A model generated the notes under the pieces. The model was not told the origin of the DNA, did not search any database, and saw nothing but the letters and a program-made list of their open reading frames with translations. The position numbers and the translations under genes were made by a program. Below, in pieces: positions 2,016 through 60,600 of a DNA stretch of 64,000 nt (position 1 is the first letter of the stretch; each line of letters opens with the position of its first letter). Origin of the DNA: Cornus controversa (lineage: Eukaryota > Streptophyta > Magnoliopsida > Cornales > Cornaceae); the NCBI GenBank assembly GCA_026545225.1, contig CM048845.1, forward strand, positions 16,647,001 through 16,711,000, in the 5' to 3' direction.

Positions 2016-2570
2016 CCAATCTGATCTGTTTTGCTATTTTTGCTCCCTCATGATGCCCTACTTGCTCCCACCCAAAAATACATCACTTGGTGCCTCTTTG
2101 TGCCTCTCCAACATCAATTTACACTTTAAAATCTTCCATTTTTATTTCCATACACCTACTTGATCATCATCATTCATCACCATCATCATCATTCCAATAT
2201 ATTTTTCTCCATCATCATTAAAGTATCAACTTTTTCATATTTCCATCTTCACAAGAGGTATGAATTAATTGTGAAAGTGGGGAGATTTCTTTGAGGGGTT
2301 TTGTGCTACAAGTTTGTGGGAGGACATTGCACATTGACTATGGACTAGTTGGTTGTTTTTTATGCTTCATTCCGGCCTTAACCCAGATGTTTCGGCACCA
2401 CCTTCTCCTTGATTTTTCAGAGGTAACTATCTTTTGTATTTTTATTTTTTTTTCATATTATTTTTTTATTTAGTTTCAAAAAAAAAATTTATGTTTCATA
2501 TTTATTTTCACCTATATTATTTCACTTGGCCGTTGGGTATAGTGGTTTGTTCTGACAAGTTGTAACATCC

Positions 2571-2723
2571 AAGTTTGGGGGCGTGCGTGCATTGTCTTGA
2601 TAAAACTGGTTTGCTATATTTTCTTACCACTATTTCTCCGAATTTCTGGTATTCTCTTTCTTACCCTTCTCTATGCTTTTATTGGATGTACATTGAAAAC
2701 AATGTACAGTTTAAGTTTGGGGG
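2571..2723 (+). other. Two extra polypurine-tract-like motifs
   Basis: The sequence AAGTTTGGGGG occurs at 2571-2581 and 2713-2723, identical to the core of the true polypurine tract next to the 3' LTR at 3881-3891. The second lies in the context AACAATGTACAGTTTAAG, resembling the context of the extra copy at 17779 in the other Athila element. Confidence 0.65.
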
Positions 2724-3133
2724 TGAGGCGATGCCTTTTTATGTGCTTATTGCAATATGGGGGAAATTTTTTTAAAATTCTTCTTATTTTAGGATTTTTG
2801 TTTATTTTATTTCTTAGTTTGTTTATTTTATTTTGTTTTGTTTTGTTTTGACATTATTCAAGGGATTAGTACCTTATGTAGGTGCATAACTTGCAATTCT
2901 TGAATATGTTTTAAATTTTTGGAAACTGTGGTTTAAATTAAGTGGTTTTAATCATTGTTTGAATTAACATGTTTTGGAGTAATTGGTTTTAGTTTCCTCA
3001 CATGCACAGACACACTAGCATAATTTTGTGAGGTATAAATTTATGCTCTGAATTATTGTGTTACATACAATAAAAAAAAAAGGAAAAATAAATATATTGA
3101 ATAGCAAATCAATTTGATCCTTTTCATGAGTAA

Positions 3134-3815
3134 CTGGGCCTCTATGCCTCAGGAAACACGAAGTGTTCGCATCAAAAGTGAAAGGGTGAGAAAAGATGAG
3201 CAATGATTGTCTTGATTTGTAGCCTGACTGATTCGAGTAATTAGGTTCTTCGGGATATCTTAACGCCTAGTGCCCTAAAGCCATCTGGTTTGGTAGTCAC
3301 TGACTGAAAGCTTGCTACATGGATCTTTCAGAAAGCTTAGTAGATCAAGATATTGCATAACCAATAAAGCAATGAAAAAAAAATGAAAAAGTCATGTATT
3401 CATGTTTGGAAGTATGATTTCAATAAGGGGAGCTAGTGAGTTGAAGGGGTATATGCCTTAATATATTCGGAGCTGGGTTATGCCACATGAGATGACTGTT
3501 AGTTCACTTTTCACGAGGGAGCTAGAGTTGGTTATTTTGAGATATGTTGATGTGAATTATGTGTGGAGACCATTGCTTTGAATTTTGAAATCTAAAAATT
3601 TAAAATTATTCTTGAATGCAAGTTTGTAACTATATATTGTAATATTCTTCTTGGATTAATGTTGAAACAGAATTTTGAATGTTTGTGGGTAACATTTCTG
3701 GAAACCCTCACGAGACTATACTCGTCCACTAGGGGGAACCTAGGGATTTAAAGGCTTGTTGCATATGCCAAATGCAATCATTTCTCCCACGAAAGTGGAG
3801 TTGGGTAGTTTAGTT
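3134..3815 (+). other. Conserved non-coding blocks of the Athila 3' region
   Basis: Two blocks (about 3134-3362 and 3698-3815) match 18208-18432 and 18808-18917 in the second Athila element, with shared strings such as CTCTATGCCTCAGGAA, AGTGTTCGC, CTCGTCCACTAG and AAAGGCTTGTTGCAT. No open frame spans them in either copy. They look like a conserved RNA or cis-acting segment rather than a gene. Confidence 0.65.
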
Positions 3816-7777: not shown

Positions 7778-8776
7778 TGTCATGCCTCAATTTCTAACTC
7801 CCAAAAACCAAGGGTGATTAAGTAAAAACCCACACTCCTCATCATAATCATCCTTTTGATATCATACTTAATACCATTGTTTGTCACGTAATCCTCTCAC
7901 ATCAACATTGTGGAAAAACTCATCATATTCACATGATCACAAATGCACAATTCTCAAATGTTCAACAGTGCACAAATTTATCCACATCCAGGTTTCGGTC
8001 GGCTGATGGATATCCCACCAATCGGCTAAAACCTGGGCATTTCATCGGCTGGCTACCCCTCAACTTCGGTCGGCTAAAGGGGGTCTTTCGGTCGGCTAAA
8101 GGGATGTTTCGGCCAACCGAAATAGGTACCTGCAGATGCAAATATTCGGTATCTCACCATTTCGGTTGGCTAAAGGATGTTTCAGCCAACTGAAATTCTC
8201 TAGACCTTATTTCTTACTGTTTTCAAACCCCAATTCAACCCTCCACAATGTTCACAACTCAAAGAAACTACACAATGCCTTATTTTCTAAAATTCTACAA
8301 TTCCCTTTGTTATTACACATACATAATCATGAAGAGAATGAAGTCTTCACATACACAACACTTAGCACATTTCACGCCTTCTCTACTCAACAATTCCTCA
8401 TTTACAACATGAATAATTTGGACATTAAAGAAAATACCACTCATCATTTGCAACACCAAGCACTTACCATGTTTAAAACATACCTAAGGAGTATGAAATT
8501 GTCAAACACAATTACAATATGTTCTTAAAATATAAACGGGTCTTATACATGCCCAACACATGCATATAGTCCACAATCCAGACATATATAATAATAAAAT
8601 AATTAAAAAGGGAATTCCATAACTCCAAATCCAACTCATGATTGCACACCATTAACCACTTCCTTGCCACGTTCTAAAAATGTTAATGTATGAGGATGAG
8701 CAAGTTCGACGACTCAAAGTAATATGTTGTGTAATCTATTCAAGTTTTCATTTCATATCATCACCATTAACCACTT
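7778..8776 (-). repeat. Chromovirus LTR, inner part
   Basis: Starts TGTCATGCCTCAATTTC on the plus strand next to the primer site and runs to the left edge of the inserted Athila element. The other part of the same LTR is at 21576-22769. Together they would measure about 2.2 kb. Confidence 0.65.
7985..8205 (-). repeat. Cluster of TTCGGTCGGCTAAAGG motifs in the LTR
   Basis: The motif TTCGGTCGGCTAAAGG and variants (TTCGGTTGGCTAAAGG, CATCGGCTGGCTA, and the inverted form GGCCAACCGAAAT) recur at least seven times in 220 bp. It is an irregular mini-array with inverted copies inside the chromovirus LTR. Confidence 0.7.
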
Positions 8777-9270
8777 CCTGTTTTTGGTATTTTCAGGACA
8801 TTACCCGTAAAATCAGTCAAATCAAGTGATTTCGTCTTCAATAATGTCTCTTCAGGATATTCCAATGGTCTAATGGTGCATTGTGTGTATTTATATATAT
8901 ATATTTATTTATTAGTATTATTTAATTATTATTTTTTTAAAAAAAATTTGTTTTATTTTATTTCTTTAAGTTATTTTTTTATATAGATATATATATATTT
9001 TAGTATTTATTTAGATATAATATTATATATTAGTTATTTATATTTATAATTTTGTATAGATATAGTTTTGTATAGATATAGTATTTTATGTATATTAATA
9101 TAGTTATAATTTTAGTATGTTTATATTTTTTCCATAGCCCATGCATTAACTACCCATTTCTAACCCAATACAACTCATCAGCCCACCCAACCATTCAATT
9201 CCTCCAGCACATATAAATCCACACACTTTGCCTCACCCAACACACCACCCCACCAAAACCCACGGCCAGC

Positions 9271-9308
<38 letters not shown>

Positions 9309-9626
9309 TGTTTCAATATTATATATGAACATATAGTTATATTTATGTGTTTTATTATTAAATATATATTTTTATATCTATAGTTTTTCTTTAAGATTCA
9401 TTATATTTATTTATTTATGTTCTTATATTTTCATAGTTATTTATTTAGTATATTATTACATATAGTTAGTTTTATATTTCATATATATTTCATGCACACA
9501 CATTCACCATCAGCCATAACCAAACCCACCAAACCCATTTACTTCCTCCAGCAAACCCACATGCCCTCAATTACTTGGCAGCACCTCACAAAGCATTCAA
9601 ACCTCACCCACCTCCACTAATAGCCG

Positions 9627-9662
<36 letters not shown>

Positions 9663-11276
9663 GTATGTTATAATATTACACTTTATATATATTTATATAT
9701 TATAATATTATATTTTATATATATATATATGTATCATTATATTATATTATATTATTTATGTTATATTATTCTATAGTGTATGTTATTTATATTATAATAT
9801 TATATTTTATATATATATGTATCATTGTAATATTATATTATATTATATTATTTATGCTATTTTATATTATAGTGTATGTTAGTGTATATTATATTTATGT
9901 ATTATATTATGTAATATTTTATTATGTAGATATATATATACATTATATATCTATGTCAGGTGGAGACAAAGAAAAAGAAAGAGATTACGTGGAGAGATAG
10001 ACCAAGACAAAGAAAGAAAAAAGAAAAAAAGAAAGAAAAGATATTTGGGAGAAGAGAGAGACGCGGCTGGAAAGGTAGAGATCAAGAAAAGAAAAGAAGA
10101 AAATCAAAAGAATAGATAGAAGAAGAAAGTGTCGGCAGCTGGAGGAGTCAAAGAAAAAGATGATAAAGTTGAAGAAAAAGATCAAAGGTGCCAGCGGAGG
10201 GACAGAAGGAATTTAAAGAATGAAGACTTTCTCTTTGCATTAAAGAAATGTAAAATATCTTTTAACTTTACAACATTATATATACAGATAGTTAGAGATA
10301 GCAGGGAAGAGTTAGATAACAGAGGGCCGAGAGATAGAATAGAGAAAGAAGAGGGAGACGGAAGAGATTGAGAAAAAAGCTACTGAAATATTTTTTTTGG
10401 ATAGAAAGAAGAGTGAGAAATATTGGGAAGCTTTGCAAAGCTTACAACAGACCATGAAGCTTGGGGTGGCTCTGTCTATGGAGCTGTTTCCTACCACAAT
10501 GATCAACTAAACTCTTCTCTAGGGCTTGAACAAAGCCCTAGCCATGTAAATATATTTTATTTTTAATAAATTCGAATTTATATATATATATATGTGTGTA
10601 TTAGTACCTAGTCTTGTGTCTTATTTTTAATACAAGTTTATAAATTCTATATGTTCATGTGTTTTAATTTATCATTCTTGTCTTAGAATTTTAGATTGTT
10701 GCACATATTCTTCAAACACTTATACTTCCACAAGGAGTGTAAGTGATGGCTTTGTACTAGTTTTCACTATAACATGCATAGCTAGATTTGCATAGTCCAT
10801 GCTTAGAGACGGTGATTTTGCTACACTTAGGTAATTAAGTAAGTAGGTAGGTAGGAAAATCACACTTATCGCAGATGGATTATAGTATTTTAAGGTGTAT
10901 GTATTCTCTTGGCGACGTCGTTGTAGGTGGTACTTGCCAAACGCATCATTAGTACACATTTATATAAATTCCCATGTTTATTATAAAATGAACATATTTA
11001 TGAGGCTAGTGGTGAAGTCTAAGCCCTAGTATTTTCTCATTTTCTCAAACTCCTTTATTTTATTGTCATTTACATATTGCAAGTAGTTTAAATAAATAAC
11101 CCAAAATTCGTTTGTAAGTTGAACAAGAAACAATCTCTGATTTTAACTATTAAACCAACGTAGTCTCTGTGGGATCGACACCCTCTTCTAGAACCCTATC
11201 CTTCAAAGATTCGTTCTATTGCGAGTGGTAAAATATAATTTGATTTCCAAATACACAAAAGGAATTTCACACACCA
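8777..11276 (+). repeat. 5' LTR of Athila no. 2
   Basis: Nearly identical to 19070-21575 and ends GGAATTTCACACACCA just before the primer site. It has three compositional zones: A/C-rich patches (9139-9270 and 9480-9620), TA-rich tracts (9275-9305 and 9625-9950) and a purine-rich GAAAGA zone (9956-10380). Confidence 0.88.
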
Positions 11277-18978: not shown

Positions 18979-19927
18979 TGATAAGCGCTGAATGTTGCAC
19001 ATTCAAGCCCTTTTAAATACATATGTTAATTCCTTAACTGCGTTCAATTTATAGTTTTTATGTTATTTTCCTGTTTTTGCTATTTTCAGGACATTACCCG
19101 TAAAATCAGTCAAATCAAGTGATTTCGTCTTCAATAATGTCTCTTCAGGAAATTCCAATGGTCTAATGGTGCATTGTGTGTATTTATATATATATATTTA
19201 TTTATTAGTGTTATTTAATTATTATTATTTTTATTTTTTTAATTTTTTTTATTTTATTTCTTTAAGTTATTTTATTTTATTTTTTTATATAGATATATAT
19301 ATATATATATTTTAGTATTTATTTAGATATAATATTATATATTAGTTATTTATATTTATAATTTTGTATAGATATAGTTTTCTATAGATATAGTATTTTA
19401 TGTATATTAATATAGTTATAATTTTAGTAAGTTTATATTTTTTCCACAGCCCATGCATTAACTACCCATTTCTAACCCAATACAACTCATCAGCCCACCC
19501 AACCATTCAATTCCTCCGGCACATATAAATCCACACACTTTGCCTCACCCAACACACCACCCCACCAAAACCCACGGCCAGCCATTTTATATATATATAT
19601 ATATTATTTGTTTCAATATTATATATGAACATATAGTTATATTTATGTGTTTTATTATTAAATATATATTTTTATATCTATAGTTTTTCTTTAAGATTCA
19701 TTATATTTATTTATTTATGTTCTTATATTTTCATAGTTATTTATTTAGTATATTATTACATATAGTTAGTTTTATATTTCATATATATTTCATGCACACA
19801 CATTCACCATCAGTCATAACCAAACCCACCAAACCCATTTACTTCCTCCAGCAAACCCACATGCCCTCAATTACTTGGCAGCACCTCACAAAGCATTCAA
19901 ACCTCACCCACCTCCACTAATAGCCGG

Positions 19928-19958
<31 letters not shown>

Positions 19959-21575
19959 GTATGTTATAATATTACACTTTATATATATTTATATATTATA
20001 ATATTATATTTTATATATATATATATGTATCATTATATTATATTATATTATTTATGTTATATTATTCTATAGTGTATGTTATTTATATTATAATATTATA
20101 TTTTATATATATATGTATCATTGTAATATTATATTATATTATATTATTTATGCTATTTTATATTATAGTGTATGTTAGTGTATATTATATTTATGTATTA
20201 TATTATGTAATATTTTATTATGTAGATATATATATACATTATATATCTATGTCAGGTGGAGACAAAGAAAAAGAAAGAGATTACGTGGAGAGATAGACCA
20301 AGACAAAGAAAGAAAAAAGAAAAAAAGAAAGAAAAGATATTTGGGAGAAGAGAGAGAGCCGGCCGGAAAGGTAGAGATCAAGAAAAGAAAAGAAGAAAAT
20401 CAAAAGAATAGATAGAAGAAGAAAGTGTCGGCAGCTGGAGGAGTCAAAGAAAAAGATGATAAAGTTGAAGAAAAAGATCAAAGGTGCCAGCGGACGGACA
20501 GAAGGATTTTAAAGAATGAAGACTTTCTCTTTGCATTAAAGAAATGTAAAATATCTTTTAACTTTACAACATTATATATACAGATAGTTAGAGATAGCAG
20601 GGAGGAGTTAGATAACAGAGGGCCGAGAGATAGAATAGAAAAAGAAGAGGGAGACAGAAGAGATTGAGAAAAAAGCTACTGAAATATTTTTTTTTGGATA
20701 GAAAGAAGAGTGAGAAATATTGGGAAGCTTTGCAAAGCTTACAACAGACCATGAAGCTTGGGGTGGCTCTGTCTATGGAGCTGTTTCCTACCACAATGAT
20801 CAACTAAACTCTTCTCTAGGGCTTGAACAAAGCCCTAGCCATGTAAATATATTTTATTTTTAATAAATTCAAATTTATATATATATATATATGTGTGTAT
20901 TAGTACCTAGCCTTGTGTCTTATTTTTAATACAAGTTTATAAATTCTATATGTTCATGTGTTTTAATTTATCATTCTTGTCTTAGAATTTTAGATTGTTG
21001 CACATGTTCTTCAAACACTTATACTTCCACAAGGAGTGTAAGTGATGGCTTTGTACTAGTTTTCACTATAACATGCATAGCTAGATTTGCATAGTCCATA
21101 CTTAGAGACGGTGATTTTGCTACACTTAGGTAATTAGGTAAGTAGGTAGGTAGGAAAATCACACTTATCGCAGATGGATTATAGTATTTTAAGGTGTATG
21201 TATTCTCTTGGCGACGTCGTTGTAGGTGGTACTTGCCAAACGCGTCATTAGTACACATTTATATAAATTCCCATGTTTATTATGAAATGAACATATCTAT
21301 GATGCTAGTGGTGAAGTCTAAGCCCTAGTATTTTCTCATTTTCTCAAACTCCTTTATTTTATTATCATTTACATATTGCAAGTAGTTTAAATAAATAACC
21401 CAAAATTCGTTTGTAAGTTGAACAAGAAACAATCTCTGATTTTAACTATTAAACCAATGTAGTCTCTGTGGGATCGACACCCTCTTCTAGAACCCTATCC
21501 TTCAAAGATTTGTTCTATTGCGAGTGGTAAAATATAATTTGATTTCCAAATACACAAAAGGAATTTCACACACCA
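18979..21575 (+). repeat. 3' LTR of Athila no. 2
   Basis: 2597 bp, starting TGATAAGCGCTGAATGTT and ending TTTCACACACCA. It is nearly identical to the 5' LTR from its position 19070 onward, including the same A/C-rich, TA-rich and purine-rich zones. Confidence 0.88.
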
Positions 21576-24829: not shown

Positions 24830-26397
24830 ACTCGCCATGCCTCCCCAATCATGGTTTGAATACCTCAATCACCTATTTATTATAGCTTGAAAAAGATTGA
24901 TAAAAATAGGATTGAGCGCCAACTTACTTAGTAGAAACACCTAAAATATGGTTCCTAAAGTCCCGTGAATACAACATAAGGAATAAGAACAACATTTAAG
25001 AATCAAGTTTTATAAATAAATGAACATGTAACTACCATATAAGATCATGCAAAATAATGATGAGTATGCAATGGTATTAGGAACCCACACGACCAAATCC
25101 CACCAATCTAACCCGATACCAATTCTGTACCCACACATGAGTAACGATCACCATGAAAAGAATGCTAACCCTCCCTAGTCAAGACAACTGCCCAACATCA
25201 TTTGGGGCCAAGTTAACACTGTCCTTTAGATTGGTTGCGACTCCCGGATCCTAACACTACATGGCCATCCAGTTTTCATAAACTTTTTCATGAAACTTGT
25301 CAAGTTTACTTTTTCATAATCAACCACCACATACATACCCACACTATCTATGTGCAATGAATGAACATTTCTTAGTCATGCTCATTTTTCACCTCTTTCC
25401 ATGCCAAATGTAAATATAACATCATAAAAAAATTTATCAAACACTTGGCATGCTTTCACATTTTTATTAAGACATTTAATCAAACACTTGGTAAAATTTA
25501 GACAATTTAGCATTTCAAGTTCTAAACTTCACCATCTTCATCAATCAAGCACATAATTGATTACAAAGTGCATAAAAGATAACACAGCACATTTCCATCA
25601 TTTCCACCACATTGGCACATAGCTTTACAAATGAAACTAAAAATCAACATGTTAGGGAACTATAAATCACCACAATTACAAGCACATATTGTTATATGTA
25701 AGAATACATATAACATACTTACAAAAATCATGTAATTCACATATTAGACATTCCTACCTCAATTTGGAAGAGATTTCAAACAAAACCTCAAATCTGTTGC
25801 AATGAGAAGTAACCCAAATCCACAGATAGATTGATCAAAAGAAAGCTTCAACACGAAGAACAAACTTTAATTTTTAGGCAACCTTCAAATCTAACTTCTT
25901 AGAGATGAAAACCCAGTGAAAAGTTTGGGAGTATAGTGACAGAAGAGAGAAATCAGAACAATGCCCTAGCTTTTGCCAAAATTTTATGTTTAAATGAATG
26001 AAAGTTATATTTATAAGGCTTGGGGGCACGAAATGACCAAAATGCCCTTTAGCCACTTAAAGTACCTTTCTAACTTCTTTTTAAATCTCTAAAATGGCTA
26101 CAGTTTCAAAAATCATTCTATCTCACTTCTAAACTCTCAAATGACTCAAAATAAAAAATAAACATTTCCAAAAAAAAAAAAAAGATTCGGTCCCCTGACT
26201 TACCCGTCTGGCACCCTAAGCCTCGTGGACCCAAAAATTTCAAAATGAAGTAAATGGCTCAAAAACTATATGGGCTTCAAAACAGGTCCCCATATGCATA
26301 AGTCATATATGAAACATATGCATAATCAATTTATAATCATTTTTTGTAAAGTAAATAAATAAAAGTGAAACTGGTCCAAAATAACCCCTGTCTCTAC
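24830..26397 (-). repeat. Second chromovirus-like LTR piece
   Basis: The text resembles plant gypsy LTRs (GGCCAAGTTAACACTGTCC, then GGATCCTAACACTACATGGC), with a minus-strand TATA-like CCTTATAAATATAA near 26007-26020. The right edge reads CCTGTCTCTAC and, after the solo LTR inserted there, A at 28820. So the minus-strand LTR would start TGTAGAGACAGGGG. The left edge is uncertain. Confidence 0.45.
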
Positions 26398-28819
26398 TGT
26401 TGACCTAAAGGTTTCATTCCAATGTTATTTGAGTGATTTTGATGATAAAAACCTATTGTAATGTAGACTTATTAAGTTTACTTGAGTCTGCAGTTTACAA
26501 GATATCAAATTATCTCAAGTATATTAAAGGATTTGGACTTCAAAGAAACTTGCAAGAAGATATATTAAGCCACGTGATCATAGAACTGAAAGATAAAAAA
26601 TCAAGATCAATGGAAAATTTGAAGTATTTACAAGTTACATGATGATGGAAACCAAGAGCTTAAGGAATTAAAGATCAAAAGACTTGGATAGGCTAATATT
26701 GGGTGAGTGCTAGATTTAATGTAAAGTTATTTTTGAAGTAACTTCTTTTGAAAGCTCATATGTTGACCTAATGATCTCTAAGACTAATGCATATCATTCA
26801 TATCATATCATGTTTCATTGGACACTTAGAATTAAGCTATTAACTTCATTGAATAATCTTGAAGGCCTTATGTTGAGATTGAGTTAATTCAAGCTTTTGT
26901 TTAGCTTTGAATGACTCAATTCTTAAGTAAACAAATTATTGAACCTACACTTGAATTAGGATATTTTATTTATAGTTCTTAGATACAATGACTTAGGCTT
27001 TGAAATCAAATGATCACTTTATATAGCCTTGTCACACACAGTTGCTGTTTCAGAGACTTAACGCAAAAATTTGGCTAAGTGTTGGATTCTATGGGCAAAA
27101 ATGTAAATATGAATTTTTCAATGAATCTTGACATAAAATGTTCCGGTAATTGTACACTATGATTTATCATGATCATATGAATTTTCTCGGTCCCAAATGA
27201 CTTGATTTAGTCATATTCATATTGCACGATGGATTTTTATGTCATTCGTTTTGTACTAAAACTGAAAAATTATATTTTGATTCACTTGAAATTTGATTTT
27301 GAAACTATTTTTATTGAATCCAAATTGGGGTACTATGCTTATTTACATTGAATAACTTAAAGTTAATGAAAATAAGTAAGCAGTGTGTAGTGTGTTGGAG
27401 CATTGTGCAGGACTATGTCTGAGTGAGAAAATGACTGAGTCTGAGAACAGTTTTAACCTTAGGACTTTCGGTCGCCTAATGGATCCCATCAGTGGTCTGG
27501 TAGAGGAATTTCGGTTGCGACATGGAACTCATCAGCAGGCTGGTAGAAACTGGAATTCATTCCAGTATGGTGTGCAAAATAAAAGAAGCTGAAACATTAT
27601 TTCAGCCGATTGAAGCGTTGCTTCAGCCGATCTAAAATTTTTCATTAGCTAGCCCATTATTTCATCAAGCGGTTGATACTACCGACAAGCTATAACGGCT
27701 AGTTTCCAAATGGCTGTTTCTGTATTAAATTACTCCTAAATGGTCATATTCTTTTAAAACTCTATATATATGAGTTTGAGCTGGATTTTTCAAGTGAGAA
27801 TTGTGGAGAAGAGAGCTAGAGAGAAACCTACCCATGAGCATACACTTAAGAAACTCTTAAATGCAAATATTTGCATATTACTTGGTAGAACATCTCTTGT
27901 AGGAACCGTCATTGAGCCTCATCTTCCTTATCATTCATTGTGGTTCATCTTGCATATCTAGAGCTAGTTGACTGTTTCATTTGAAATCTCCATATACAAC
28001 TCTAGGATTTGAGCGTATATTGAATATCTATTCATTGAAAAATATTGTTGTAATTGTTCTACAAATTTTTATTTACCTTTGAGAGGAAGACCAAACGATT
28101 GGTTTGACAGAGAAGTCTTGGTAAGGTTTTCATTGAGTAAGGAAGCCCAAATCATGATCTTGAAAAAGAAGTCTTGGTGAGGTATTCACTGGAGCAAAGA
28201 AGCCTAAGTGGTTCACTTGGCAATTGTAACAGTTTGCTTTCCACCCTTAAGGGAAATCCCATAGTGGAATCCTCAAGAGGTGCTCTTGAGGCATGGATGT
28301 AAGCTGGAGGTGCCGAACCATGTAAAAATCATAGTATTACTTGGTTTGCATTTCTCTAACCCTTAACTACTTTACCTAATAGCATTTCATATGTTTAATT
28401 TTAGATATATAAATGTTATGAGTTTATATGCTTTGATTTATATGAGGAGGATGTGATGAATGCATGGAGTATGTGAATTGATTGAGTATTAATTTGATTA
28501 TCCTTTTACCTATCAAGTTGCATACCTTGTGTTTGATAGAATGTGCAATTAACATTTTCACACACTACAAACATAATATGTTGCACTTATATGAACACTT
28601 ACACTTGTTGTATCTACTAGATCATTTAAGTGCATAATAGTTTTCTAAGATAGAGCATTCTCATTCCCACTTGTTGAATACATAAGTTCACCAAGTGTTT
28701 GACAAAAGTCCATTCAAGCTAATTTTTGTCAAAACAAACTAAACCGAAAAAGTTCCATTGTTTGCTTAAAATTCCTATTCACCCCCCTCCTCTAGGGACA
28801 ATTTTGGGATAACATCTAC
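26393..28819 (+). mobile_element. Solo copia LTR (Maximus/SIRE-like) with target duplication TCTAC
   Basis: LTR at 26398-28814 (2417 bp), starting TGTTGACCTAAAGGTTTC and ending TTTTGGGATAACA, flanked by TCTAC at 26393-26397 and 28815-28819. It shares its start, middle (TTTGGCTAAGTGTTG near 27070) and end (ATTGTTTGC, then TTCACCCCCC) with the LTRs at 47080 and 57996. A cluster of TTCGGTCGCC and TTCAGCCGAT motifs lies at 27470-27640. It is a relic of unequal recombination between two LTRs. It landed one base from the end of a chromovirus-like LTR. Confidence 0.88.
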
Positions 28820-29547: not shown

Positions 29548-30745
29548 TCCTATAGCGGTGCTCATAAGGTACCTTCAAGGCTCAAGTGGTCTGGCCTCTA
29601 CAAAGCACAGACACGGCCATAAAGGCGTCGTGACCGTATCGGATACGGATACGGCCAGGATAGGGCAGGATACGTGTCCGATACGGCTAAGAAGTATCCA
29701 ATTTTTTTAAATTATTTTTTGAATATCAGATGCGGCTGAGATACAAGGAGGATACGATTGGAAAACTCGGGGATACGCCAGGGTACGCCTGAGATACGTT
29801 TAGGATACTTTTGGGGGCAAATTTGTAATTTTTTGTTATATAAAATGGGGTTGAGACTGTAATATTAAAAACTTTATAGGTTAAAAAATAAGGGTCATTT
29901 TATAATGAAACAAAAATATTTTTAAAACCCTCAAGTAAGTGAGTCATTGTAAATAATATTAGAAAAGATAGAGGAATTCTAGATTTTAACTTCTTATATT
30001 TTGTATAATTGCTTTAAGTATATTTATTATGTGGTTGAAGAATAAAACTTAATATTTTATGTATAATATTTTATTTGAGATTTTTCGTATCGCCGTATCC
30101 ATATCGTGTCGTACCTATATCCCGTGTTCGTGCTTCCTTGCCTGGCCTGGTATTAGCGCTTGTAGGGTGCTCAAGAGGTGATCTCCAGTCTTAGGTGGCC
30201 TGACATGGTGTCAGTACTTGTGGCGGTGCTCAAGATGTGATATCGAGGATTAAGTGGTTTGACATGGTGTCAGGGCTTGCAGCGATGCTTGAGATATGGT
30301 TTCGAGGCTTAAGTGGCCTGACATGGTATTAGGGCTTGCAACAGTGCTCAGGATGTGATTTCGAGGTTTAAGTGACTTGGCATGGTGCCAGGGCTTGTAG
30401 CGATGCTCGAGAGATAATCTCGAGGCTTAAGTGGCATGATAAGGTGTCAGGTCTTATGGCGGTGCTTGAGAGATAATCTTGAAGCTTAAGTGGTCTAACA
30501 TGGTGTCAGGGCTTATGGCGGTGCTCGAGAGGTAATATAAAGGCTTTAAGTGGCCTTACATGGTGTCAATGCTTCTGGCACTGCTTGAGAAGTGATCTCG
30601 AGGCTTAAATGGCCTGATGTGATGTTAGGACTTCTAGCGATGCTTGAAGAGTCATCTTGAGGATTAAGTGTTCTGACATGGTATCAGGGCTTGTAGTGGT
30701 ACTCGAGAGGTGATATCGAGGCTTATGTGACCTGCCATGGTTTAT
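29548..30745. repeat. ~60-bp tandem array, about eleven units, interrupted
   Basis: Units of about 60 bp resembling GGCCTGACATGGTGTCAGGG then CTTGTAGCGATGCTCGAGAG then GTGATCTCGAGGCTTAAGT. Ten units run from 30140 to 30745 and one lies at 29548-29595. The gap between them is filled by the GATACGG repeat. Units diverge by roughly 10 to 25 percent by eye. Confidence 0.8.
29597..30137. mobile_element. GATACGG-rich element inserted in the tandem array
   Basis: Begins AAGCACAGACACGGCC and the reverse complement of its end reads GGAAGCACGAACACGGG, giving short terminal inverted repeats. It is rich in GGATACG units near both ends. It splits the 60-bp array. No coding capacity; superfamily unclear. 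Confidence 0.55.
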
Positions 30746-30867
30746 TGTGATGTAAGAGTTTCTTCATGGTGTTTGAAAGGGCTCTCGAAGTCCTCCGCGT
30801 GTTCTGCCGCAGTAGGAGTGGCCAAGGGCGTCACTCCTTCAGGTAGTATGTGCAGTTATGCCTTGTT

Positions 30868-47074: not shown

Positions 47075-48822
47075 ATAGATGTTAGTCTTATGCCTGTTAT
47101 CCATGCTTGTTGTTTATATTTTGATGATAAAAAATTGTATCATATTCTTTTAATTTGTCTATATCAAGTATGATTAGCTATAAGAAATAGATAATCAAAA
47201 GTACAAAAGACATTTGAAGACGTTTACAGAAGGAATCGAAGATATTGGAAGACGTTTGAAATACCAATCAAGAAGCTGACTCTCAAGCTTATCGTTATCA
47301 ATACGTAAAAGTTAGGATATTCTTGTAAACTCTTTGATGATTGAACTCTTGAGGCTCTATACCCTAAAATGATCTCAAGATCCCTCAGGCATTTCATACA
47401 TGAAAAACTATTTTTTATTCAAATTTGGCTAAGTGTTGAATTCTAAGGGCAAAAACATAATTATGAATTTTGACATAAAAAGTCTCAGTAATTGTACACC
47501 ATGATTTATCATAATCATATGAATTTTTTCAACCCAAAATGACTTAATTTTGCCTTTCATTTTGCACGATGAAATTTTATCTCAAAGCTGTGAAAACTCA
47601 TTTTGTACTAAAACTGAAAAATCAGATTTTGTTTTACTTGGAATTTGATTTTGAAACTATTTTTATTGAATTCAAATGGGGGGTACCTTACTTATTTACA
47701 TTGAATAACTTAAAGTAAATCGAAAGATTTACTTAAATGTTTTCAATGTAAATAAGAATATAGTGTGTAGTGTACTGATGCACTATACAGGTAAATAAGA
47801 ATACAGTGTGCAGTGTACTGATATACTGTGCAGGACTGAGTTGGAATATGGCTAAGTCTAAGAATGGTTTCTACCAAAGAACTTTCAGTCACCGACTGAT
47901 ATAAACTAAAATTCAGACCAGTAGCTAGTGTATAACTTCAAGTTCAAATTCATTTTTCATATGTCAAACAAATGTGCAAGTCTTTCAAAATAAATTTCTA
48001 CACTCTTAACTAAGTTTGATTTTTTAAATCAATTTCAAACATGTCAACCAATATGTTCAAAATTTTCAAAACTCTTGACTAAGTTTGATTTTCTAAATCC
48101 TATTTCAAACATACCAACCAATATGTTCAAGTTTTTTAAAATTTTTGACTAAAAGAATTGTCTTATCAAATCATATTCAAATTGTTAAATCATTTCATCA
48201 AATGAAATGATTCCATTTTGCACTATAAATATGTGTCTTAAAACACTTGTTTAAACACAAGCTTACATTATCAAAAGCATTCATCATATTCTGATATTCA
48301 CTTCCTCTTGAGCCTTATTCAATTCAATTCATCCAAAAGATCTAGTGTGGGAATTTTATTCAAAGGAGAGTTATCATTGTGAGAGTGTTATTTGTATATC
48401 CCTCTCATAAAGGAGAGTTGTTCTATCATTATTCAATCTTGTAAAGGTTAGTTCTTCACCTACAAGAAAGAACAAGGGTTGGTGTGACCCAAAATGAAAG
48501 AAGTGGTGTGCTTCTTGTCTGGGTTTGCTCTCCACCCATAAGGAGATGACATAGTGAAATTGGGGAAGTCTCAAGAGGGGTCTTGAGCCGAGGAGTAAGA
48601 GTTACCAAATCTCGCTAAAATTGCCTTGTCAAGTATTTGCAATCTTTCTATCCCTTACTTATTTTTATTTGTGCATATTCCTATTTATTGCTTATCAATT
48701 ATTCCATTTATTACATTAGCGTTCAATTATTTAAAATTAAAATATTTTTTATTGTTTGTCAATGACTCTATTCACCCTCCCCCCCCCCCCCCTTCTAGAG
48801 TCTATTATTGAGTAACAATAGA
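47075..48822 (+). mobile_element. Solo copia LTR with target duplication ATAGA
   Basis: LTR at 47080-48817 (1738 bp), starting TGTTAGTCTTATGCC and ending ATTGAGTAACA, flanked by ATAGA at 47075-47079 and 48818-48822. It shares long stretches with the solo LTR at 26398 (TTTGGCTAAGTGTTG, AATTGTACAC(C/T)ATGATTTATC). It has a local duplication near 47755-47835 and a run of 14 C at 48779-48792. The sister MITE around 40581-40596 shows the uninterrupted site (AGAAATCTATGAATT, i.e. AATTCATAGATTTCT). Confidence 0.9.
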
Positions 48823-48972: not shown

Positions 48973-49647
48973 TGTAATACCCCGCTCCAACACATGGTGT
49001 GATATTATCCACTTTGGGCTTAAGCCCGCACGATTTTGCTCTTGGGTTTTACCCCAAAAGGCCTCATACCATTTTGAGAGAACACACTACATATAAGCAC
49101 ATCTCATCTCACCCAAGCGATGTGGGATTGAGCACCTTGTAGCCTGCCAGTGTGGTAGCTTAGCCTAGTGTCTTATCTTGCACCCGCCCACATCACACCC
49201 GCCCACAAGGGTCATTACAATCCACCCTCCTACGAGGCTCGACATCCTCGTCGGCACACTTCCGGCTGGGTTCAGGCTCTGATACCAACTGCAACACCCC
49301 CTAATTTCCATACATAAGTTGGTCAGGCTTATACACAAAAATTAGAAAATGTCAACACATGATAATAAACAAACATAGAGTACAAGATGTAATAAAGAAT
49401 GAATTTAATAGCAGAATGAAAATCTAATAAATAATAAATTATGAACCATAAATCTCCAAATTAAATTACGAAACAGTTATGGAGATTTATGGTTCAGGAT
49501 TTATTATTTATTAGATTTTTGTTTTACTATTAAATTCATTCTTTATTACATCTTGTACTCTATGCTTATTTATTATCATGTGTTGGCATTTTCTAATTTT
49601 TGTATATAAGTCTGACTAACTTATGCATAGAAATTAGGGGTGTTGAA
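48973..49647 (-). mobile_element. TRIM-like chimeric retroelement insertion with fold-back end, target duplication GAAGT
   Basis: 675-bp insertion flanked by GAAGT (48968-48972 and 49648-49652). Plus-strand order: an LTR-like block in minus orientation (48973-49219, TGTAATACCCCGC to GGGTCATTACA), a short internal part with a minus-strand initiator-Met primer site (49275-49287), an LTR end in minus orientation (from TGCAACACCCCC at 49290), a loop, and the same LTR end in plus orientation ending AGGGGTGTTGAA. The sister MITE (reverse complement near 40470) lacks all of this, confirming the boundaries. Confidence 0.75.
49292..49645. repeat. Long near-perfect hairpin, 167-bp arms
   Basis: The left arm 49292-49458 (CAACACCCCCTAATTTCC to TGAACCATAAATCTCCA) and right arm 49480-49645 are reverse complements at over 90 percent by eye, with a 21-bp loop at 49459-49479. 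A transcript would fold into a long double-stranded stem. Confidence 0.9.
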
Positions 49648-49977: not shown

Positions 49978-50764
49978 GGGTAAATTACTCTGACCTCCCC
50001 TGAGGTTTGATCTAATTACACCCAGCATCAAACTATTGAATTTTGTTACAATGACCTCCTTTGAGATTTGCTCCGTTATGACACAGACCCCCTCCGTCCA
50101 AAATTTTGTTAATTTGGCCAAAAATTTTAGTTGAAAAGACCAAAATGCCCATCAACTTATATATATATATATATATACACTATTCCGGTCATCTTCTCCG
50201 GCGATGTGCACTATTCTGGTCATCTTCTCCGACGAATTTTCGGTGACTTTCACGGGTTCCGGTCATCTTCTCCGGCGAATTTTCGGCGAGCTGCACGGTT
50301 CCGGTCATCTTCTCCGACGAATTTCCGGCGAGATGCACCGTTCCGGTCATCTTCTCCGGCGAATTTTCGGTGAGCTGCTCTGTTCCGATCATCTTCTCCG
50401 GACGAATTTCCGGCGAGATGCACTGTTCCGGTCATCTTCTCCGGCGAATTTCCGACCACCTTCATTTTTCCGGCGAACTTTCCGGGAAGTCAATTTTGGC
50501 CATTTTTTACCAACTCAAACTGGTTCCTAGCTAAATGGACCATTCCGGACGCAACTGTGAAGTCTATTTTTTAGAATTCAGCTTCGATTTGTCAGATTTA
50601 ACATCCAAGTGTTGTGATATTAATAAAATAAAATATATCAATATAATATTAATAAGGGTATAATAGACATTTCACCCAAAAATTAACCTCTGTTAGTCAA
50701 TTTCTGTTAGAGGGGAGGTCATTGTAACAAATTTCTTTAGTTTAATGCTAGCTGTAATTAGGGC

Positions 50765-54600: not shown

Positions 54601-57600
54601 CTGTTGATCAACCACAAAGAAAAAATCAAATTAACATGGAATTTTAAGCTATAGAACAGTTCAAATGGTCATGGCAATTTGGAAGAGTGAGATCTTAATG
54701 CATTTAACGCAAAAACAAATAGAAAGGCAAAATTTGTCACACGTACATTCAAGTTTGATTGGAGCTCTGCATTGGCTTCTGGAGCAGGAATTGCCCGGCC
54801 ACCACGATCACGGACTCTCGCTCTTCTGGCACCATCAATGACATTAGCTTTCCCGCTCAAACCTCTTTGCCTGTGGAGGAAAAGTATACCGTCTATAAGC
54901 TTATGACCAAGATTGCTCCACAAAATTGTAATCACTTAAGGAAGAAATAAAACCTTCTTGCTGCTTCATCTCTCAATTTCACATCCATCTCTTTGCTGGG
55001 AGGATATTTTGGTAGACTTGATGGCTCACAAGCATAAGGTTCAGTTGTAAAGAACTGTAACCATAGATAAAGTGCAAACTAAGTGATTTCCTCCCTTAAA
55101 TAGTCTTGTTCAGAATTTTCATTTAAAAGAATATATCATATGAAAAACAGAGCAGATTTTTTGTTAAGCAGATGTCTAATATATACAAGTTATCAAACAA
55201 TAGCCATCTTTTAGAACCGCATTCAGTAACTATTGAATATTACGTAATTCCCTGAGATCAACAACTAATCATTAGTATGTATATTTATGCCTTGTTTTGC
55301 ATTTCCTGCAGGAAGTGACATCTTTATTCATTAGCAATCAAAAACAGAGTAGCATAAGCAAGCAGTCATTCATTTTACTTATACTCGATTAACATGATCG
55401 AACTAACCAGATGAACCATTTAAACAGCTTTTGCAATTTTAAAATTTTAGTCTGGCTCCACCTTTTATGGTTTTCTGGTCGTCCAGTTGCGGAGAAGATG
55501 AAAAGCTGTGCATAGTCAAAGTATGTGGCTAGGTCAATCCAGATGACTACCTGTTGTTCTCTTGAACTATGAACTAGGGTCTGGCTTATTTTTATGCACA
55601 GTTTTCATCTTTCTCCGCAGCTGGACAACCAGAAAACCATACTTTGACTATCTATCAGTCTTTTGCGACCTGCCTACAAATCAAAACATAACCTTGATTT
55701 CGAAGTGCAATAATTGCTGCCAGCTGTTAAGAGGGCAGTTTAATCATGAAATTGTGAGCATTTGAAGGTCTGACAAATATATAACTGATCAGTATTAAAG
55801 AACACATGGAAGCTTTTGTCAAGCTTCTGATTTACTTTTGTCCAAACAATTAGTGCAATTGAGAGCATCAAACAATTAGTGCAATTGAGAGCATCTTAAA
55901 AGAATAAGTATTGCCACCCAGGCTGCTTCAACTTATAAGTACCCTTTCATTGCAGGTGTACAGACTCCAGACAATGAATAGTAACAACAATTCATCCACT
56001 AATAATCTAAAGGATAAGACAAAAAGGTGACTTGAATAAATAAATATGTTCTCTCGGATATAATTTACCTACCATGTAGGAGGTTAGTTCAGAGTCAACC
56101 ATTAGAAAAAGACAAGCTAACTACAACGACCAAACAGCAACAGATCATTGAACCATTGATATGTTGACCAAATTGTCTGATGAAGATATGGAACATTATT
56201 GATATGAAGCTATCTAGCAAATATACCAATATTCTTTTGCTTTAAGAAAAATTACTCACTTCACTATTCAGAGCTGCAGTTGCAGAGCCTCGTTCATCGG
56301 GGTCAATTGAAAGAAGAGTTTCAACTAGAGGAAGAGAAGAAGGTGGGAAATCCTTGAACGTTTCTGTGGTGCGACGCTTGTATGGCTGCTGTGGTTTAAA
56401 AAGTGTTGCATTTGGCAACCTGGATTTCTTCCAATATTCCTCAGATGGGGAGCCACATAACTTAAATATTTTGTGCAGTTGCTCCACCTACGCAAGAAAA
56501 GAGTCCAAAAATGAATAAATTTAAACCACCAAAATTTCAGTCATAGTACAAGAATAATGACTAACAGACGCAAGCACCCAGATCACGTCAAGTGTGAGCA
56601 ATGTGAACTCGAAAACAAATCTCCCAAATAAGTTAGAAGCAACGAAAGATTGAATTAGTCATAGTACATCTTGCATTGTGTTATTTTTCTCTCCACACAA
56701 GAAATATGTAGCTAGAAACATCCCTCTGCCTAACTGGTGGAGCTAACTCTGAGAGAGGTCAATATCAAATTCTCTGACTGACAATCTTATTGACTCTAAA
56801 TATGTTCTGCCATGTTACATGGACTCTTCAAAAGTAGTGAAGCACCCGTGTTGGACACACAATACTAGTGTTACCCAAGAGGGGGAGGGGGTGGGGGAGA
56901 ATTGGGTCTTTGACAAACAATGGAATTTTATCCGAACATGTAAAATGGTTCAGCACCCCCGCCTCAAGATCATCTCTCGACTATTCCAAAATCTACTATC
57001 TACTCTCCTTCACAGGTAAAAAGCAAACCTTGTACAAATGAGCTTCACAAGCTCTTCTCTCTTGCTAAGTTAAAGCCTCACTTAGGCTTCAAGGGTCTCA
57101 CCAACCCTTTTACAAGAATAATCAATGAAGAATAGAGTTTGAGTACAATAAAGGTGAATCTCTTAATGGATGGATAAGCAAATCAATAATTCACAGCTTA
57201 CAGCAATAAATGATGCAAGATGTCAAAAACTCAAATCTAGGCAAGAACACTTAAGAGCAATGAATGATCTTCAAACGTGTTTTCAAATGATAGTTCAATA
57301 CCATAACTATTCAAAGGAACATGTATTTATAGCCTCTCACAAGGATATAGTTGTTGGAGCATTTAATGCGCACGTGATGGTAGTTGAATCTGACAATTTT
57401 CAAATTTATAGAACACTTAAGCGTCTAAAAGTGACAGTTAGCTCCCCCCCGGCGGGCAATTCAGAGCCTCCAACACAAATTTCCTCATATTCCTCCCCCT
57501 TCTGTTTTTGTTGACATAGGGGGAGAAAACTTATACTGATGTTTAGAGATAAAGAGAATATTGATTGTACTTGCTTTTGTTTCAACAAGTATTGATTGTA

Positions 57601-60600
57601 CTTGCTTTTGTGAATGTGTTACCACATTTGGTTCCATTTTCTATATACTGTTGTGGTTCTGTGTTCTTGACTTTATGGTATATGACATTTTTGGACAGCT
57701 TTACCCTTGGATATATATTTGTATGACATATTGGTCTTTATGGATACTCTATGTGTTATTTGAATATATACATCCTATGTATGAAATATGATTCATATTT
57801 AAATTATTTGTCATAGATAAATGAATGGATGAAAGTTTTTAAAATTCTGGAAATTGCATGATTATTATATTCTTTGTGAGCGTATTGATAGGGGGAGCAC
57901 CCCAAATTGTGAAGCTGATAGGGGGAGCTTTATTAATGTTTATTATTATTGTTTAAAACACATCAATAGTTTGTCATCATCAAAAAGGGGGAGATTGTTA
58001 GCCCCAAAGGTTTCAACCCAAGGGCATTTGGGTAATTTTGATGATTATAAACAATTATAGTGTAAATTTAATATTCTACTCAAGTGTGACCATTTTCAGA
58101 TTATCTTAAACTCAAGTCAATAAGGCTCGGCAGAGTTCAAATTGACAAGGCACGTGATGAGGAAACCTATGAAGCTTGAAGTCAAAGCTCAAAGACATTG
58201 AAGTCAAAGATGAAGAAAATGGGTAGTATAGTCTTATGGTGAGAGCTAGATTCCATGTAAAGCATTTTATGTTGCATTTTGTTTAGAAGCTCAAATCATG
58301 GACTTAGAAGATTCTAGTAGGACCCTTAAACCAATTGAATAACATCATTCAAAGGTCCATAGAATCAATTGACTAAGCCCATGAACTTAGATGTCTCACA
58401 TTTTAAGGGTATAATAGTCATTGAAAAAGTTAGAAGTCATTTCGAACTTAAAAGAAATCAAATTTATGGTTTTGAATGACTGAGGTGCCTAAATAACCAA
58501 ATACATAACAGGTGTTCTGCTACATGTAACTTAGACATCTATCATATGCTATATAGACGCCTAACTAAAACTTCCAGTAGCCAAGACATAAAAGTTGAAA
58601 TCTTGACTTAGGTGCCTAACTGAATTAAATGGCTTTTCCAGAAGAGGGGTGATTTTCCAGGAAAATGGACTTAGACGCCTAATTGTTTAGATTAAGCACC
58701 TAATTGTCCAACACAAAAGGCAAATCTAGGACTTAGACATCAAACTGTCCCTTTTAAGCGCCTAAATGTTTGATAAATTTGGAAATCATCAGATCCAACT
58801 ACTCCCACACGCGCATTAAATGCTCCAACAACTATATCCTTGTGAGAGGCTATAAATACATGTTCCTTTGAACATTTATGGTATTAAACTATCATATGAA
58901 AACACTCTTGAAGATCATTCATTACTCTCAGGTGTTCTTGCCTGGATTTGAGCTTTCGACATCTTACATAATTTACTGCTCTAGGTTGTGAGCTATTGAT
59001 TTACTTATCCATCCATTGAGAGATAGCAAGAAAGAAGAGCTTGTGAAGTTCATTTGTACAAGATTTGCTTTCCACCCGTGAAGGAGAGTAGATAGTAAAT
59101 TTTGAAATCCTCGAAGAGGTGATCTTGAGGCGGTAGTGTCGAACCACGTTACATGCTCAGTGTTTATTGTGTTTTAATCTCTCTCTTTATATTTGTGCAT
59201 TGTTAATTTCATATATACATCTTAACATTTGCACAAAATCTTACGCAAAAAAAATTTCATTGTTTGCCAAAGACCTAATTCACATCCATTGAGAGATAAC
59301 AAGAAAGAAGAGCTTGTGAAGTTCATTTGTACAAGATTTGCTTTCCACCCGTGAAGGAGAGTAGATAGTAAATTTTGAAATCCTCGAAGAGGTGATCTTG
59401 AGGCGGTAGTGTCGAACCACGTTACATGCTCAATGTTTATTGTGTTTTAATCTCTCTCTTTATATTTGTGCATTGTTGATTTCATATATACATCTTAAAA
59501 TTTGCACAAAATCTTACGCAAAAAAATTTTCATTGTTTGCCAAAGACCTAATTCACAACCCTCAACCCCCCCCCCCCCCCCCCCCTCTTCCCCTTCCCCT
59601 TCCCCTTCTCTCTCTCTATCGGGTCAATTGTTGGGTAACAACTAGAACATGGGTATGGGATGTGTCTCTTTTTGTTGGACATGCACCTAAAAAGCATATC
59701 AAATGATTCAATTTTATCATATTATTGTTTAGGGTAAATTACCCTCCGATACCCAAAGGTTTACACTTATTACCCTCAAATTAAACTTTGTCCAAAATCA
59801 CTCTAACACCCCATCATAGTTGGTTCCCGTTTGTTTATGATAACAGTCAAAGTTAAATGTCTATAATACCCTCTAACAAAATATTTGCTATACTGACATA
59901 AGCACACCAATATGTGATAGACAAAAAATGCCCCTAATATAACTTACGTCCTTTAACATGCCTTTTCATTTCAGCCACAAACCCAACTTGCCAAAATCAA
60001 AGACTCCCACTCCTCTCTCCTAATCTGAGAAACCCTAACCTTTTGAACTCTGTCTCGCAATCTTTAAGTTTATACAACATCAAAGCTTGAAGGTTTGTTG
60101 TCCTACGATCATGAAGTGCAAAATTTACATTTTGTCCACCATCAGATCTTGAGAGCTTGTCCCAAATCATTTTTGGGTTTCGATCATGAAGCAGAGAGAG
60201 AAGACAAGATTCCTTTACAGTTTGCTTGGTAATTATTCCCTTAGGGAAGAACGTAGTATATCGTCGTTCGAGAGCATTAATATCAGCGTTAGAATTCAGA
60301 AGTAAAATCTATTCTTGATTTTCTTCTTTATTTTCCTTCACTTTCTTTTGGGTTTTCTGGTCAGTCTCACGAATTGGAATGTACAAGGCTAGTTCTTTAA
60401 TTCTTTTTTCCGGAATTAGTAAGCAACAATATTTCGTGAAATTTCTGCATTTTCATTTCTTTTTCTTTTTTCTTTTTGGTGTTTTCTTGATTTGAAGTTT
60501 TGGTCATCCAATCACTCTCCTCTAAATTGTTGTTCTGAGTTTGAATTTTTCATATGAAAAAAAGACACTGTAACTTGTGAAGGAGGAAATCTAAGGTAGA

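Follow-up and report, generated by a model that had tools for sequence, protein, structure and literature searches.

The 64-kb window (the whole stretch of Cornus controversa DNA that we analysed, C1:16647001-16711000, from a scanned genome of 771.7 Mb) carries at 56869-59640 a 2,772-bp fragment of a Sirevirus-type Copia element with U5 ends at both of its outer edges. On the left the insertion abuts one half of a copy from a ~145-bp dispersed repeat family (56809-56868, forward strand), the last five bases of which, 56864-56868, are the left copy of the target-site duplication ACTAG. Directly after this ACTAG stands TGTTACCC, the outermost U5 end of an LTR fragment on the reverse strand (56869 to about 57443), which continues inwards with R, the TATA region and ~110 nt of U3. 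A junction zone (57444-57517), which may derive from diverged U3, from filler or from where an internal reading frame ended, is followed on the forward strand by a 3' linker (57518-57995) with four AGGGGGAG polypurine octamers. Behind the polypurine tract lies a complete forward-strand LTR (57996-59640; TATA at 58851) that begins with TGTTAGCC and ends with GGGTAACA, the last base of which, 59640, directly precedes the right ACTAG (59641-59645). The latter opens the other half of the target repeat (59641-59730, forward strand). The sequence-only reading had reported two U5 edges flanked by ACTAG, and the duplication is indeed exact on both sides; the canonical layout, with U3 on one side and U5 on the other, is not what is found here.

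Sireviruses, reported from plants only, are defined by a group of several AGGGGGAG octamers close to the 3' LTR, the last of which begins 10 bp before the LTR, and their hallmarks include an AT/TG attachment site, an inverted repeat round the terminal tract and a C-rich stretch near the U5 end (PMC2829016, from which we took the octamer definition). In the window the octamers start at 57518, 57890, 57920 and 57986, the last of these 10 bp before the LTR start at 57996. The AT/TG site follows the terminal tract (AGGGGGAGATTGTTAG), the tract is flanked by an inverted repeat (57958-58063; arms 57958-57985 and 58036-58063, 79%), and a C-rich run, judged by eye, precedes both U5 edges. On these sequence hallmarks the insertion at 56869-59640 is assigned to the Sireviruses (Ty1/copia); it resembles the genus in all of the features just listed and differs from it in that only the 3' end of an element is present, as a fold-back. 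(Note that the Sirevirus U3 has been described with a palindromic CGG-CCG repeated motif; PMC2829016.)

In the self-comparison the left arm matched the 3' part of the right LTR in reverse complement. The homology comprises 282 ungapped nucleotides (57158-57439 against 58743-59024, with 38/282 mismatches) and further segments on the left at 56934-57067 and 56881-56929, and it reaches about 58739 in the right LTR, upstream of the TATA at 58851. The order proposed earlier (inverted R-U5, 3' internal sequence with a polypurine tract, complete LTR) holds overall but was incomplete on the left, where the arm also has the TATA region and ~110 nt of U3. The insertion consists of 3' linker and LTR parts only, with no core sequence. 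Inside the right LTR a 273-nt tandem duplication (59010-59555, forward strand), whose copies differ at 5/273 positions (98%), is missing from the left arm and, judged by this divergence, is younger than the arm split. Because the U3 end is missing and the edge lies exactly on the duplication, the left half would be no simple inversion of a resident LTR. The absence of a U3 terminus from the left arm also led us to reject autointegration, in which a U3 end would have entered another cDNA by one-ended joining.

Removal of the element together with one ACTAG leaves flanks that form one continuous member of the ~145-bp repeat family. When the best 40 of 1,147 first-look candidates for the joined flanks were scored, all 39 matches other than the site's own two halves, which were excluded, crossed the join, with identities of 82-88% in 38 cases and of 73% in the other. 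In the 12 of these that we read (the top ten, the 14th and the 17th), the columns of the duplication are gap-free in 11, with a 1-nt gap in the remaining match, L091; one copy, L083, carries an exact ACTAG at these columns. Small indels occur off the join: many copies contain 2 nt and then, slightly downstream, ~5 nt that are missing from the site, and L092 is longer by 7 nt upstream of the join. At the join itself the target repeat has lost or gained no bases beyond the 5-bp duplication. The suggestion that the flanks run together into repeat-like sequence can thus be put more strongly, as they are the two halves of one dispersed-repeat copy. Since the duplication is exact and the paralogous sites are empty, there is strong support for the earlier proposal that a DNA with two U5 ends integrated in one event, and we regard it as almost certain that 56869-59640 entered in a single event.

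The competing reading, in which two separate insertions in opposite orientation were fused by loss of the DNA between them and are flanked by ACTAG by chance, draws on the finding that recombinant complexes outnumber template-switching ones by 20 to 2 in ~7 Mb of Triticeae sequence (PMC1950507). However, two random 5-mers of the window match with a probability of only 0.0018, and the continuity of the target repeat would require both insertions to have hit the identical position. We consider this history very unlikely and close to refuted. The window also contains two solo LTRs related to the element, at 26398-28814 (TCTAC) and 47080-48817 (ATAGA; positions read from the sequence), both with U3 on the left and U5 on the right as normal. 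These serve as duplication controls. A script that sought the five bases after the U5 end before TGTT found a duplication in none of five relatives (L009, L012, L034, L035 and L038), and in L003 no clean LTR start was found in this check; being older or cut copies, all of these are unusable as controls.

The two arms differ at 64/480 aligned positions (50 transitions and 14 transversions), or at 65 when the other tandem copy is used. In a common set of 410 columns there are 56 differences between the arms, whereas L003, their nearest long relative, differs from the left arm at 92 and from the right arm at 97. Outgroup comparison with L003 assigns 23 changes to the left arm, 28 to the right and 5 to neither; against the majority of nine relatives the corresponding counts are 25, 29 and 2. 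Alignment with ten relatives revealed that a 13-nt deletion after CTTGAGGC is common to both arms, nine of the relatives carrying the 13 nt and the tenth, L040, being unaligned at this site. Moreover, the right arm lacks 91 nt that are kept in the left arm and the relatives, and the left arm lacks ~88 nt that are kept in the right arm and the relatives. The indel differences had been taken to favour two different parent molecules, an argument that is not supported, since each arm has a private deletion, the 13-nt deletion is common and the arms differ at 56 columns against 92 and 97. (The 13% difference with private indels also led us to reject an assembly chimera.)

In a genome scan with the left arm, in which the best 40 of 414 candidates were scored, identity to the right arm was 87% in a 282-nt alignment (338 bits) and other matches went up to 82%; the C2 copy outscores the right arm (375 bits, 76%) because its alignment spans 527 nt. 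In the scan with the right LTR (best 40 of 849 candidates scored), identity was 87% to the left arm and 81-82% to copies on C1 and C2 within U3; values of 85-89% came from short matches of 44-111 nt, most of them located where the LTR begins.

When the changes were scored against the majority of relatives, the bias between C>T and G>A was opposite in the two arms in the LTR sense and alike on the chromosome strand (11/4 against 4/11, Fisher p = 0.027; with L003 alone, 9/5 against 3/11, p = 0.054), which is a weak hint that the divergence arose after insertion. Columns at which the arms mismatch are somewhat more variable in the relatives (0.30 versus 0.24; 111/10,000 permutations), and part of the arm divergence may be older than the insertion. 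A 62-nt stretch free of mismatches (58811-58872; 162/100,000 shuffles) goes beyond uniform decay, with arm-to-arm conversion or chance as possible sources. Constraint at this TATA stretch, which would have pointed to divergence before insertion and to two parents, was rejected: the relatives are not more conserved there (mean variability 0.29 versus 0.24). The K2P distance between the arms, 0.151, corresponds to 5.8-11.6 My at substitution rates of 1.3e-8 and 6.5e-9, and the probability that the ten bases of the duplication would remain unchanged is 0.47. The arm sequences fit a nearly identical pair, inserted perhaps 6-12 My ago, that decayed mostly in place to about 13%; divergence after insertion is enough to account for the differences, although a smaller part may be older.

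The inner junction is localised only to 57444-57517. Homology of 57444 to about 57505 to U3 was reached by 2/1,000 shuffles in a collinear test; against the whole upstream U3 the figures were 7/500 for 57444-57520, 2/500 for 57444-57510 and 98/500 for 57444-57495. By eye L003 has no clear counterpart of this stretch, and its derivation from U3 is a possibility that these comparisons raise. The resemblance of a reading-frame end near 57518 to L004 (FVD..GGE) was discarded as not significant (420/1,000 shuffles); in the scan L004 alone has the FVD..GGE form, and a looser DNVKGGE frame occurs in six other loci. Among the best 40 of 127 candidates scored there was neither a second copy of the junction stretch nor another match to the linker upstream of 57855. 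Because the deciding junction lies somewhere within 57444-57517 and no other copy of it was found, we choose among mechanisms by inference.

The reading that we slightly favour, with a probability of roughly 45%, is that two sister cDNAs each supplied their U5 end to one integrase reaction and that the inside was joined by repair. Virus-like particles hold two RNA copies, such that two sister cDNAs could coexist in one particle, and the U5 end of a cDNA becomes double-stranded early, after plus-strand strong-stop DNA and before a U3 end exists. Integrase would have paired the U5 ends of both cDNAs and joined them together to ACTAG; the inner tails would have been trimmed and joined by host end repair, or else ligated just before integration. 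One cDNA would have contributed the inverted, truncated LTR and the other the 3' linker with its LTR, and the arms would then have diverged, mostly in place, to about 13%. Consistent with such a pairing are the exact ACTAG on both sides and the continuous paralogous empty sites, the fact that the arms are closer to each other than to L003 with similar branch lengths and a common 13-nt deletion, and the use of U5 pairs by HIV integrase in vitro (PMC8742673), although that precedent is a retroviral enzyme other than plant Copia integrase. Against it can be set the higher variability of the arm-mismatch columns in relatives and the 62-nt identical stretch, which uniform decay does not explain. 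The sequence also fits end-joining and a reverse-transcriptase switch alike, the junction being unreadable for microhomology or filler.

A switch of this kind, which the sequence-only reading had proposed, is the close rival of sister-cDNA pairing. Synthesis of one minus-strand cDNA would have halted within U3 and resumed in the linker of a second minus strand, continuing as far as the U5 end of the latter and yielding a fold-back with two U5 ends before integration. This is compatible with the anatomy, since the order of inverted U5, inverted R and part of inverted U3, then linker, then LTR fits, as does the single insertion, and complex plant insertions with 5-bp duplications have been ascribed to reverse transcription (PMC1950507). 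However, the joining of two sister cDNAs accounts for this anatomy too, and the switch would require reverse transcriptase to use minus-strand DNA as a template and the left arm to become double-stranded without a polypurine tract of its own. Moreover, its two-parent argument is unsupported, given the common 13-nt deletion and the arm distances. We regard the switch as a serious contender, only slightly less likely than the pairing. We think it improbable that a single minus strand primed itself and snapped back into a palindrome, each side of which held linker and LTR and the centre of which was later lost asymmetrically. The arms do belong to one subfamily, and palindrome centres are deletion-prone, but a hairpin has one open end and would need to be opened or copied to present two, and self-comparison (repeats of at least 20 nt) revealed no inverted copy of the linker besides the short inverted repeat at the terminal tract. 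Long inverted arms and a 5-bp duplication would also suit a self-propagating fold-back or TIR-type element, mobile as a unit with its U5 edges acting as terminal inverted repeats. However, the 61 matches listed (best 40 of 1,459 candidates scored) include no further copy of the complete unit, and the best candidates scored did not show the several copies, mobile as one unit, that such a transposon would be expected to have. In addition, the linker upstream of 57855 is without another match, as noted above, and among 50 fetched loci, many of them overlapping, with ~1.5 kb flanks, inverted LTR arms occur solely in loci that overlap this site; such an element is the least credible of the origins considered. 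(Inverted pairs in L002 and L021 were set aside, as they do not match this Sirevirus family.)

In a limited literature search, mostly of titles and the beginnings of abstracts, we found no inverted U5/U5 genomic insertion. Retroviral work of the 1980s on inverted cDNA forms may have precedence. LTR-finding programs look for direct LTR pairs, which is why fold-back insertions from faulty reverse transcription or mispaired ends would go unseen. The locus provides a search rule, namely LTR 3' ends that are inverted and outermost, with a 5-bp duplication, by which the frequency of such insertions would be measured.

The nearest published case, on the accounts that we compared, appears to be the template-switching complexes known in Triticeae, rice and maize, in their tandem form in grasses (Sabot & Schulman 2007, PMC1950507). 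These too are rearranged LTR elements in which a 5-bp duplication marks one event, and two packaged RNAs are invoked for them; the Cornus element has the matching duplication round a rearranged element (ACTAG, with empty sites). As described, the complexes have three LTRs and two internal regions in tandem with normal edges, whereas in Cornus a truncated LTR lies inverted on the left and U5 forms both edges. In place of an internal third LTR, two complete cores and highly similar outer LTRs there are two inverted arms and no core. HIV-1 proviruses with asymmetric LTRs (26/88) or inversions likewise result from faulty reverse transcription followed by integration; their deletions mostly end in U3, and they differ in that no U5/U5 fold-back structures figure in the account consulted (PMC9278108). 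Two U5 ends are also used in concerted (two-end) integration by HIV-1 integrase, which in vitro prefers U5/U5 pairs and joins two U5 ends to one target, most sequenced products having a 5-bp duplication (PMC8742673). At the Cornus locus the exact duplication and the paralogous empty sites suggest that integrase can finish integration with two U5 ends in a plant-type genome. More tentatively, a plant Copia integrase may have paired sister-cDNA U5 ends in one particle in vivo, which would make the locus a germ-line fossil of two-donor U5/U5 integration, of a class that may exist in plant genomes. The HIV-1 system consists of purified enzyme and short donors (PMC8742673); in Cornus, by comparison, the insertion is genomic and its interior has been joined.

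Two solo LTRs akin to the complete LTR of the Sirevirus-type fold-back insertion (56869-59640) lie elsewhere in the window. One, of a related Sirevirus family, occupies 26398-28814 and is flanked by a TCTAC duplication (26393-26397 and 28815-28819); the other, at 47080-48817, carries the duplication ATAGA. Comparison of the window with itself revealed blocks that are common to these two LTRs. Elsewhere in the genome, five related LTR starts, among the matches listed, are clustered within about 94 kb (C10:1691711-1785238). Note that in L021, one of the 50 genomic loci fetched, a large inverted pair (399 nt, 95%; positions 2158-3144 of that locus) adjoins a related LTR, and that this pair gave no match to the LTR family itself.

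The window also contains a hairpin-like inverted repeat at 49298-49640, with arms of 161 nt (91%) and a spacer of 21 nt, together with tandem arrays at 50189-50485 (unit spacing of about 42 nt) and at 30131-30781 (59 nt spacing). Moreover, comparison of 8775-10878 with 19068-21177 identified multiple direct-repeat pieces of 98-100% identity, spaced about 10.3 kb apart, and these pieces are perhaps the LTRs of a large young element.
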